Positions 2,159 through 5,321 of a stretch of DNA of 6,169 nucleotides are shown one piece after another (position 1 is the first letter of the stretch; each line of letters starts with the position of its first letter). The DNA comes from an uncultured Bacteroidales bacterium (GTDB lineage Bacteria > Bacteroidota > Bacteroidia > Bacteroidales > Bacteroidaceae). The notes under the pieces are model-generated. The model saw nothing but the letters and a program-made list of their open reading frames with translations. It had not been told where the DNA came from and searched no databases. Location: contig CACXLY010000111.1 in assembly GCA_902768605.1 (NCBI GenBank), positions 1 to 6,169 of the forward strand. The letters run 5' to 3'. The position numbers and the translations under genes are program-made.

Positions 2159-3016
2159 TTAGTAGAGATGCGACGGGATGCGCTGCTTGGCGTTTTCAAA
2201 GTCCTCGACCGTGTCGAGCTCACAGGAAAAGAGGTCCGTGACGTCGAGCACGCTGAAGGTAAAGCCTTTCTGGATGAGGCGAAGGAATGCCAACTCGTAG
2301 AACTTGTTTTCGAGGTGCTCCTCATTCATCATCGTGTCCAGCTCCTTGTAGAGCGCCGTGGTGTAGGCCTTGCCCATGCGCTCGATGCCGAGACTCTCGC
2401 CGGCAGCCGATGCAGGGTCGCACGTCTTGCTTATCTCGGTGATAGACCCTTCCAAACTTCCCCTTAAAGGGGAGGCTTCCACATCCAAAGTCTCCTTCCC
2501 TTTAATGGAGGGCAGGGGTGGGTCAATGACGACCTTCATCTCCTCCTCACCAAGCTCGTGTCGGATAAGGGTGAGGACGTTTTCGTGCTTATCTGCGAGA
2601 ACGCGCTCCACGATTTGTCCGTCGTAGAGCAGGTCGCTGTCGAGCAGCAGCACCTCTTGCCCCTCGGCCTCGGGGCGCGCCAGCCAGAGCGAGTAGATGT
2701 TGTTGGTTGTCTCGTAGTCCTTGTTATGGATGAAGCAGATGCGGATGCTGTCGCCGTAAGTTTGCTTGACGAAGTTCTCGATTTGCTCATGCAAATAACC
2801 CGTCACGATGACGAATTCACGGATGCCTGCCTTGATGAGGGCATCCATCGAGCGCTGCAAGAGTGTGCGTTCGCCCACCTTGAGCAAGCATTTCGGCGTG
2901 TTGGAAGTGAGCGGACGAAGTCGTGAAGCTGTGCCCGCTGCAAGGATAAGGGCACGGACCCCCTCTTGCTCCCCCTTAAAGGGGGAGGAAACAGAAACTT
3001 TTGTCCCTTTATTCAT
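2159..3016 (-). CDS. LicC-like nucleotidyltransferase (probable CTP-dependent headgroup activation), carrying two REP-derived peptide segments
   Basis: 285 residues. This is an NTP-transferase fold related to LicC/phosphocholine cytidylyltransferases and sugar-1-phosphate nucleotidyltransferases. Visible motifs are the nucleotide-binding loop 'LILAAGTASRLRPLT' (23-37), 'PKCLL' (41-45), 'NNIYSLW' (105-111, typical of LicC relatives), the metal-binding 'LDSDLL' (125-130, Asp126/Asp128), 'GESLGIERM' (206-214) and 'ELDTVED' (266-272). The expected reaction is phospho-alcohol + CTP giving CDP-alcohol + PPi; the substrate cannot be read from sequence. Family members usually begin at the equivalent of Arg21 ('RALILAAG'). 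Here residues 1-20, including 'SPFKGEQEG', come from a REP palindrome, and no ATG, GTG or TTG lies nearer the domain, so the start at 3016 is forced. Residues ~165-190 ('PPLPSIKGKE' ... 'SPLRGSLE') are a second, in-frame REP-pair insertion between strands 'EMKVVID' and 'GSITEIS'. It lies 27 bp downstream of the HisC-like gene and no promoter is seen between, so they are probably co-transcribed. Family confident, substrate unknown. Confidence 0.9.
   Translation of the reverse strand: MNKGTKVSVSSPFKGEQEGVRALILAAGTASRLRPLTSNTPKCLLKVGERTLLQRSMDALIKAGIREFVIVTGYLHEQIENFVKQTYGDSIRICFIHNKDYETTNNIYSLWLARPEAEGQEVLLLDSDLLYDGQIVERVLADKHENVLTLIRHELGEEEMKVVIDPPLPSIKGKETLDVEASPLRGSLEGSITEISKTCDPASAAGESLGIERMGKAYTTALYKELDTMMNEEHLENKFYELAFLRLIQKGFTFSVLDVTDLFSCELDTVEDFENAKQRIPSHLY
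2445..2524. repeat. REPIN-like inverted pair of palindromic repeats inside the nucleotidyltransferase gene
   Basis: Two REP-like units of ~30 bp face each other. Unit A1 (+, 2445-2474) starts GACCC and ends in the palindrome CCCCTTAAAGGGG (2460-2472). Unit A2 (-, 2494-2524) starts GACCC on the minus strand and ends in a degenerate CCATTAAAGGG palindrome. A 19-base spacer separates them, so the whole has GACCC/GGGTC outer ends. It is translated in frame within the host gene. Confidence 0.85.
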
Positions 3017-3080
3017 AAGTCAGACTTGTATTGTATGGGGGGATTAGTCCTCTCCCTTTAAGGGAGAGTTAGAGAGGGTC
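2957..3080. repeat. REPIN-like inverted pair spanning the junction of the two minus-strand genes
   Basis: Unit B (+, 2957-2987) starts GACCC and ends in CTCCCCCTTAAAGGGGGAG (9-bp arms, 2969-2987). Unit C (-, 3050-3080) starts GACCC on the minus strand and ends in CTCTCCCTT/AAGGGAGAG (arms 3060-3068 and 3050-3058 on the + strand). Outer ends are GACCC/GGGTC as in the 2445-2524 pair, with a 62-base spacer. The element encodes the C-terminus of the aminotransferase ('SNSPLKGED') and the N-terminus of the nucleotidyltransferase ('SSPFKGEQEG'). Confidence 0.85.
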
Positions 3081-4099
3081 TTCTTAATAAGGTCCACCAC
3101 GGTCTGAATCTGTTCGCGACGTCCGAGGGTGATGCGCAGGCAGTCTTCCAGGCCCTTGTCCGTCATGAACTTGATCTTGTAGTTCTGGTCGGCAAGCGCT
3201 TTCTGCAGTCTCTCCTTGATGGCTGTCGGGTATTTGATGAGGATGAAGTTCGCGACGCTCTTATAGACCTTGAAGCCCGGCTTGTCGCCCAACTCTTTTT
3301 GGAAGAGCTGGCGGTCCCATTCCATCTCGTCTGCTACGCGGCGATAGTGGTCGTCGCTCTCGAGAGCCGCCAGCGCGACTGCCTCCGAGAAGCGGTTGTA
3401 GCCAAGGTACTTGTTGCAGTAGCTGAGGAACTGGTCGTGGCCGGCGCCGATGAAGGCGAAGCCCACGCGCAGGCCCGGCAGGCCGTAGAACTTGGAGAGG
3501 GTGCGCGAGATGATGAGGTTGTTGTATTTGTTCACGAGGGGCGCGATGTAGTCCACATCGGTCGTGATGAACGAGGCGTATGCTTCGTCCACCAGCACCA
3601 TCGTGTCCGCCGGGATGTTCTCCATGATGCGGCCTATCTCTTCGCTCGTCAGGCTGTTGCCCGTCGGATTGTTGGGCGAGGCGAGGAGCAGCATGCGGGG
3701 ATGAATGCGGTTGGTGTAGGCGATGACTTCGTCGACGTTGTAGGCAAACGTGTCACCTGTCTCGTAGAGCGGATACATCTCGAACGAACCGCCGCATTCG
3801 CCGGCAACGCGGTTGTAGTACCACCAGGAGAACTCGGGAATCAGGATGGTCTTGTTGTCGCCCTCCATCAGGTAGTAGTGGATGGCATTCTTCAGCATCT
3901 CCTCACCGCCGTAGCCCAGGAGCACTTGGTTCTCGGGAACGCCATAGATTTCGCTAAGGCGAACACTTATGACACTCTTCTTCCCTTGGTCGTATATGCG
4001 GGTGTAGAAGCAGAGCGTGTGCGGGTCGAAGTTCTTTATCGCCTCGATGACCTTCTGGGAAGGCTCGAAGTTGAATTCGTTTCTGTCGAGAAAGTTCAT
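3044..4099 (-). CDS. HisC/CobD-like PLP-dependent aminotransferase-fold enzyme (class I/II)
   Basis: 351 residues, normal length for the histidinol-phosphate aminotransferase family (fold type I). Visible motifs are 'GYGGEEMLKNAI' (62-73, phosphate-cup region), 'SPNNPTG' (141-147; Asn144), 'DEAYASF' (171-177; Asp171 and Tyr174 contacting PLP), 'SRTLSKFYGLPGLRVGF' (198-214; Lys203 is the Schiff-base lysine, Arg211 a phosphate contact) and 'LRITLGR' (321-327; Arg322 the usual substrate-anion Arg). All key residues are present, so it should be active. No his genes are nearby. Its partners are a LicC-like nucleotidyltransferase downstream and, divergently, a CDP-alcohol transferase, which suggests it makes or handles an amino-alcohol phosphate rather than histidine. 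CobD-type phospho-amino-acid decarboxylases share this fold and cannot be excluded. The ATG at 4099 lies ~27 bp after a consensus promoter -7 box. The final 'SNSPLKGED' and the stop derive from a REP unit; native family ends resemble 'VVDLIKK'. Confidence 0.92.
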   Translation of the reverse strand: MNFLDRNEFNFEPSQKVIEAIKNFDPHTLCFYTRIYDQGKKSVISVRLSEIYGVPENQVLLGYGGEEMLKNAIHYYLMEGDNKTILIPEFSWWYYNRVAGECGGSFEMYPLYETGDTFAYNVDEVIAYTNRIHPRMLLLASPNNPTGNSLTSEEIGRIMENIPADTMVLVDEAYASFITTDVDYIAPLVNKYNNLIISRTLSKFYGLPGLRVGFAFIGAGHDQFLSYCNKYLGYNRFSEAVALAALESDDHYRRVADEMEWDRQLFQKELGDKPGFKVYKSVANFILIKYPTAIKERLQKALADQNYKIKFMTDKGLEDCLRITLGRREQIQTVVDLIKKTLSNSPLKGED

Positions 4100-5212: not shown

Positions 5213-5222
5213 GGGAAAGAAT

Positions 5223-5321
5223 AATTCACAATTCATAATTCGTAATTCATAATAAGGCTTGCGCCCTGCTTACGGTTGAAGGATAAAATAATTATGAATT
5301 ATGAATTAACAATTATGAATT
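5223..5321. repeat. 99-bp AT-rich inverted-repeat (MITE-like) element
   Basis: Left arm 5223-5253 and right arm 5291-5321 are reverse complements at 27 of 31 positions. Each arm is built from iterated ATTCATAATTC-like words. The 37-base centre (AAGGCTTGCGCCCTGC and on) is GC-richer. It fills nearly all of the 115-bp gap between the two membrane-protein genes, ending 6 bases before the downstream ATG. As RNA it would fold into a long hairpin. AT-rich ATTCATAATTC repeats are, from memory, common between Bacteroidales genes; mobility here is inferred. Confidence 0.75.

Follow-up and report, generated by a model that had tools for sequence, protein, structure and literature searches.

Introduction

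Passages of PMC3733652 describe palindromic repeats that lie in frame within likely functional genes of Rickettsia, as well as intragenic REPs of the GTAG/CGTC types in O. terrae, R. conorii and others, where dimers located in open reading frames (ORFs) encode 20-30 residues. RNA helicases, a DNA ligase and genes for repair are among the hosts mentioned in these passages, and most REPs are placed there in intergenic regions. For Bacteroidetes, passages of PMC6006769 report that the REPs of TnpAREP subclass 2.6, or RAYT group 5, are atypical and lack GT[AG]G.

Here, we report a computational analysis of 6169 bases of DNA from an uncultured Bacteroidales bacterium (this entire stretch is referred to as the window), with an emphasis on a segment of a nucleotidyltransferase (NTase) gene. 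The segment is, very probably, a REPIN that keeps the frame of a phosphocholine-cytidylyltransferase-like gene and encodes a flexible loop of the enzyme, the gene being under purifying selection; a second copy lies at the junction with the adjacent gene, and the repeat would have spread in trans with the help of a Y1/RAYT-like enzyme.

Results and discussion

The window and the host enzyme

The window encodes a DUF4465 protein, the NTase, a HisC-like aminotransferase, a CDP-alcohol phosphatidyltransferase and an LPG_synthase_TM protein. The NTase gene, its aminotransferase neighbor and the parts of the intragenic repeat pair are located as follows:

2159..3016, minus strand: host gene, NTase of 285 amino acids, phosphocholine cytidylyltransferase-like (PF00483/PF12804; 1jyk; Foldseek)
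3044..4099, minus strand: neighboring gene, HisC-like aminotransferase of 351 amino acids (PF00155)
2445..2471, plus strand: first REP arm of the intragenic REPIN, matching GACCCN8YYYCCYTTAAAGGG with 0 mismatches
2472..2497, no strand: spacer of the intragenic REPIN, 26 nt (from the sequence)
2498..2524, minus strand: second REP arm of the intragenic REPIN, matching the pattern with 1 mismatch
2445..2524, minus strand: REPIN read in frame, residues 165-191 (DPPLPSIKGKETLDVEASPLRGSLEGS) (alignment, loci, model)

Sequence comparison with the PDB matches the NTase to LicC (1jyk, E 1.6e-19), Foldseek retrieves PntC (6pd2) and 1jyk by fold, and the homolog P0013 bears the name phosphocholine cytidylyltransferase family protein. 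Judging from sequence and predicted fold together, the enzyme appears to be closest to the LicC-type phosphocholine and PntC-type cytidylyltransferases. Pfam and NCBIfam yielded no enzyme name finer than NTase, all the NCBIfam matches shown being under the cut-off.

The loci nearest to the window (L001-L020) come from metagenome-assembled genomes (MAGs) of uncultured Bacteroidaceae, Prevotellaceae or Bacteroidales, many of which carry the source labels goat, yak, deer, buffalo or reindeer. Two other repeated elements were noticed in the window. An AT-rich inverted repeat pair (5221-5321), with 87% complementarity, lies between the CDP-alcohol transferase and LPG_synthase_TM genes, and AT-rich repeats resembling it occur in frame within other genes of relatives. 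The DUF4465 protein region (1-1300) contains a duplication at a spacing of 681 nt, the initial 300 nt of which are 95% identical.

An in-frame insertion between two strands

As predicted from the sequence, two facing REP units with GACCC/GGGTC outer ends lie within the coding sequence, at 2445-2471 (+) and 2498-2524 (-), and the frame is kept, the NTase ORF (2159-3016, -) remaining open through both arms. The added segment had been put at about 24 residues (~165-190); the site is borne out, at codons 165-191, but the length was slightly overestimated, the net gain over empty homologs being 22 residues (28 versus 6 between V163 and I192). Among 34 aligned proteins, an extra block marks the filled forms at a position where the others have six residues, and beyond the two REP-encoded stretches the NTase aligns to the 33 homologs without an insertion of its own. 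The same precise gap is apparent among 31 loci (the window and L001-L030, of 80): four of these (the window, L001, L002 and L004) are filled and have 28 to 44 residues at this site, as against exactly six, the short turn that had been expected of relatives, in the other 27. L003, the closest kin of the window on the gene tree, is among the empty sites. An alignable segment of the same length in REP-free homologs, which would speak against an insertion, was seen neither in the 33 aligned homologs nor in the 31 loci. In the AlphaFold2 model of the NTase (41 sequences, mean pLDDT 86), the insert is predicted to form a low-confidence loop between strands 161-165 and 191-196, in keeping with the original prediction; residues 172-185, as well as residues 1-15, have a pLDDT <50.

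Between the window and L001, pN is 0.05 and pS 0.55 over 60 codons on either side of the insert, values that point to purifying selection on the flanks. It is scarcely credible that the longer loop is native and its likeness to REPs accidental, or that the gene is a pseudogene or an assembly artifact, and all these explanations, in favor of which nothing was found, were rejected. A native loop is contradicted by the empty sites in homologs and loci, and a chance resemblance by the count of 0 matches to the repeat pattern in 200 dinucleotide shuffles of the window. Further evidence against these readings comes from the flank pN/pS, and from P0002-P0012 and, in separate assemblies, L001, L002 and L004, all of which carry this insert or one like it.

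A third REP site in the NTase gene, after residue ~90, was found in L001 and L022 and is present in nine of the 34 aligned proteins (P0007, P0009, P0017, P0019, P0020, P0023, P0024, P0028 and P0070).

A dispersed family of short palindromic repeats

The repeat unit comprises 27 nt, GACCC-N8-YYYCCYTTAAAGGG. At <=2 mismatches, the window contains four copies arranged as two inverted pairs (2445-2524 and 2957-3080). Genome-wide counts were taken from relatives of the window's genome, one of which, G001, is the genome of L001. With the same tolerance, three related MAGs yielded 140 (G001), 90 (G004) and 114 (G002) matches, against 0 for the reversed-pattern control; part of the G001 matches at 2 mismatches, of the CACCCCTAACCC... 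type, resemble another repeat. At <=1 mismatch, G001 has 81 matches, and across 201 genomes of the family any match was detected in 17, and five or more in five, G001 among these, compared with a single control match in one genome. The dispersed high copy number and the closely spaced inverted palindromic pair are both features of REPINs.

The 99 matches listed for G002, out of 114, fall into 61 clusters, 30 of which are simple inverted (+-) pairs. That such a pair represents a MITE, with GACCC as its terminal inverted repeats and a DDE transposase as its mover, is quite improbable. The fixed ends fit this description, as do the recurring inner spacings among the 30 pairs (12 nt in 8, 24 nt in 8 and 36 nt in 4), but no target-site duplication was seen by eye at the printed filled and empty junctions, and arms also occur singly or in clusters of 3 to 5, as in REP/BIME families.

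A second REPIN at the gene junction

The other inverted pair of the window spans the junction between the aminotransferase and NTase genes:

2957..2983, plus strand: arm of the junction REPIN, which contributes part of the N-terminal extension of the NTase (pattern match)
3054..3080, minus strand: arm of the junction REPIN, which contributes most of the aminotransferase C-terminal tail (pattern match)
2960..3016, minus strand: NTase residues 1-19 (MNKGTKVSVSSPFKGEQEG), from the spacer and an arm of the junction REPIN, with the start codon within the spacer (alignment, loci)
3044..3079, minus strand: final 11 codons and stop of the aminotransferase (TLSNSPLKGED*), from the junction REPIN (loci)

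In REP-free relatives (e.g., L006, L008 and L012), the aminotransferase ends in ...IKSCL* or ...IKNCL*, a few bases ahead of the NTase ATG, and the NTase starts with MKAIILAAG or a similar sequence. Where the REP pair is present at the junction (the window, L001-L005, L010 and L015), the aminotransferase ends in ...TLSNSPLKGED* and the NTase starts with MNKGTKV or MTKGTKV; relatives without the pair lack both the 11-residue tail and NTase residues 1-19. P0003 and P0008 share the internal insert, and the N-terminal REPIN is found in P0003 only, so that its presence is polymorphic among near-identical genes, an indication of mobility.

In-frame repeats in other genes of related genomes

The same arrangement was sought in the regions around the 99 listed of the 114 matches in G002 and, in G001, in the regions of 37 perfect-match clusters plus the NTase locus. 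A cluster was counted as intragenic when its two sides shared one open frame and codon usage scored >8 bits on each, an uncalibrated threshold of our own; by this score, 37/62 clusters in G002 and 22/45 in G001 are inside coding frames. With a stricter score (12 bits over 180 nt on either side), 28 of the 62 G002 clusters are intragenic, 19 have coding sequence on one side, 5 are at a contig edge, 2 have it on neither side, and 1 is divergent. The seven remaining G002 clusters, in which the frame is not continuous, were inspected and lie at gene boundaries, six of them 1 to 14 nt past a stop codon; a clearly broken gene was not encountered among these seven.

Several hosts are core enzymes. 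For the DEAD-box helicase (5gju), RmlD (1vl0), AroE (2egg) and EtfB (6fah), alignments with PDB sequences place a gap at the REPIN, and in LigA the REPIN is located between the OB and zinc-finger domains; an acyl-CoA dehydrogenase and a C1 peptidase are further hosts. The REPIN in the acyl-CoA dehydrogenase gene of G005 (L247) throws the gene out of frame, with a stop, which represents either a real, rare breakage or an assembly error. A DapA-like gene of G004 (L231, assigned by eye) contains one TAA in the matched frame. Two gene assignments were rejected: L136 as ProS, this locus being ProA-like with a Pfam Aldedh match just under the cut-off, and L117 as UvrB-like, this locus being sulfatase-like by eye. 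At two sites (L137, 2501-2597, and L114, 8674-8809), the charged leading portion of signal peptides (e.g., MFAKLRFLPFKGRLGGVFFLFLLLLLAAC) seems, by eye, to derive from REPs. The in-frame repeats explain the peptides SPLKGE, LPLREG and SPFKGE that are seen in proteins of these genomes and might pass for a conserved domain.

Conservation and inheritance of the inserts

The REPIN might be more than a tolerated passenger, being kept for a role as nucleic acid (an mRNA hairpin or a DNA site), with a sequence that is near-fixed even at synonymous positions; we regard this as unlikely. At nine shared sites (eight between G001 and G002, one between the window and L001), the arms differ at 6/442 positions (1.4%) and the spacers at 9/193 (4.7%), compared with 76/359 (21%) for third codon positions within 60 nt outside, but the arm figure is subject to ascertainment bias because arms were required to have <=2 mismatches to the pattern in both genomes. 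Decayed copies exist, such as the L111 site in G001 and G004, and between the window and P0006, which are 98% identical, six of the seven protein differences fall within the insert, against a near-fixed REPIN. Folding of the intragenic pair (2445-2524) as RNA is no better than that of shuffled sequences (z -0.49), and arm identity does not differ between 33 intragenic and 16 other pairs (p 0.9), which also argues against such a role. The junction pair (2957-3080) folds better than shuffles (z -4.26).

The idea that intragenic pairs form weaker hairpins was rejected, given the lack of a difference in arm identity, raw folding energies without a clear difference (p 0.08) and per-nucleotide energies that are marginally stronger in intragenic pairs (p 0.046), that is, in the opposite direction.

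A separate question is how the same site came to be filled by near-identical inserts in species that are not sisters. That the element itself was inserted, converted or transferred more than once, as opposed to being inherited, has in our estimate somewhat less than an even chance. Mapped on the gene tree, the filled state at the NTase insert site takes 4 changes, and well supported branches force no fewer than 2 of them; the state is no more clustered on the tree than shuffled labels, the window's sister L003 being empty; these observations fit repeated gain, loss or exchange. Divergence changes sharply from insert to flank at the edge of the element, and there are two insert alleles, one shared by the window and L001, the other by L002 and L004. 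Against this stand the compatibility of the tree with a single gain and several losses, 10/28 of its inner branches being unresolved, and the variation of spacer peptides between sites of one genome, which speaks against copies of a single master; L005 can be read either as the original target or as a deletion scar.

Different repeats at the same loop

Orthologs of RmlD were found in 23/24 genomes and of the helicase in 24/24. Depending on the genome, the loop in question is empty, reduced to a remnant or filled by a GACCC REPIN, by an AT-rich or TCAATGN array, or by a member of a second inverted family, which has CTCCCCCTTTGGGGGAG cores. The second family has 8 copies in 0.375 Mb of G003, compared with 0 for the control, and 3/5 of its clusters are inside frames; a local scan of 80 NTase loci found 0 copies. 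TCAATGN arrays occur in 15/15 genomes searched, with 1 to 122 matches each. The RmlD gene of G009 (L197) has, at the position of the REPIN in others, the short remnant RKTLSQF, which resembles an in-frame deletion scar.

In a less biased test, ten G002 sites were sought in G001, G004 and G005 with the insert omitted from the query, and the classes were read by eye. Among the 27/30 sites recovered, 12 contain the same family (in one case combined with another repeat, in one out of frame), 7 are empty, 5 clearly carry a different repeat and 3 are ambiguous. Different repeats at one loop may reflect replacement in place or independent insertions at tolerant loops. We tentatively suggest, with the balance somewhat against it, that tolerant loops in these Bacteroidaceae are shared docking sites at which unrelated repeats (GACCC REPINs, CTCCCCCTTTGGGGGAG REPINs, and tandem arrays of the AT-rich and TCAATGN types) swap in frame. 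If so, such repeats would be interchangeable protein-coding modules that continually re-diversify housekeeping enzymes.

Search for the transposase

Matches to Y1 transposases were detected in 6/13 genomes, and genes with a motif match to the subclass 2.6-like RAYTs are present in G001 and G002. No GACCC REP was found at <=3 mismatches near RAYT/Y1-like genes in the scanned stretches of these incomplete MAGs (L081-L086, L092, L093 and L146-L148, with L087 and L090 outside the scan). The REP-rich genomes G004 and G007 showed no match to any of the three transposase queries, and G004, G005, G007 and G010, also REP-rich, none to the subclass 2.6-like RAYT of G001. By analogy with known families, we infer that a Y1 enzyme would move the GACCC repeat in trans.

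One Y1-type protein (L088), 395 amino acids long from the first Met, contains GENAAKVHG repeats and has relatives at the level of at least 84% in G002, G005, G009 and G019.

A scenario and its implications

The following scenario builds on what was seen directly: the repeat and its copies throughout the genomes of relatives, the frame that stays open, the empty sites, and the recurrence of this arrangement in dozens of further genes. A short palindromic repeat is dispersed through a set of uncultured Bacteroidaceae/Prevotellaceae genomes, many of them from ruminants, and would have been spread in trans by a single-strand transposase of the Y1/RAYT type. One REPIN would have entered a tolerant surface turn of the CTP:phosphocholine-cytidylyltransferase-like gene with the frame intact, to be translated as a flexible loop with a net gain of 22 residues in the predicted structure. 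A second would have landed in the junction of a few bases, where it came to supply the C-terminus of the upstream gene together with the start codon and N-terminus of the NTase. Insertions would occur widely, and selection would remove those that break genes, leaving the in-frame and between-gene copies.

REPs are extragenic by name, and here about half or more of the examined clusters in two genomes are in coding frames, several of them in core enzymes. The clean empty and alternative alleles in close relatives make it testable how bacterial proteins gain new loops, and also whether such palindromes persist as neutral passengers or because selection retains them.

Comparison with known systems

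With the Rickettsia palindromic elements, the repeats analyzed here have in common that, as passages of PMC3733652 describe, palindromic repeats lie in frame within likely functional genes. The open frames, the empty homologs and the apparent purifying selection correspond to in-frame insertion into genes that probably still function, so that the predicted resemblance holds at the level of behavior. The host phylum is different, the elements here are inverted REP pairs with GACCC heads, and in sister species a given loop is sometimes occupied by other repeat families. The intragenic GTAG/CGTC REPs are alike in forming dimers within ORFs, but the repeats here have neither tag, their ends being GACCC/GGGTC. 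Whereas the REPs in the passages of PMC3733652 are mostly intergenic, 37/62 and 22/45 of the clusters examined here are intragenic, a departure from the extragenic location of REPINs as well.

The REPIN/RAYT systems of Pseudomonas and E. coli resemble the present one in having two inverted short palindromes closely set, tens to >100 copies, several arm types and clusters. In contrast to these, the GTAG head or a variant of it is replaced here by GACCC, 8 nt off the conserved core, and a cognate RAYT flanked by the same REPs was not found in the stretches scanned. TnpAREP subclass 2.6, or RAYT group 5, belongs to the same phylum and also has atypical REPs, and genes matching its motif occur in G001 and G002; however, the palindromic repeat on either side of the G001 gene (L086, ~1295-2230) is of the GGATTTGTAATCCGCC type, possibly its own REP family, and no GACCC REPs were found there. 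Among open-licence PMC papers, we found none that describes the GACCC repeat family or an exchange of families within one loop. In-frame REPs are already known from Rickettsia and elsewhere, and what appears to be new here is the GACCC repeat family and the alternation of repeat families at one loop.
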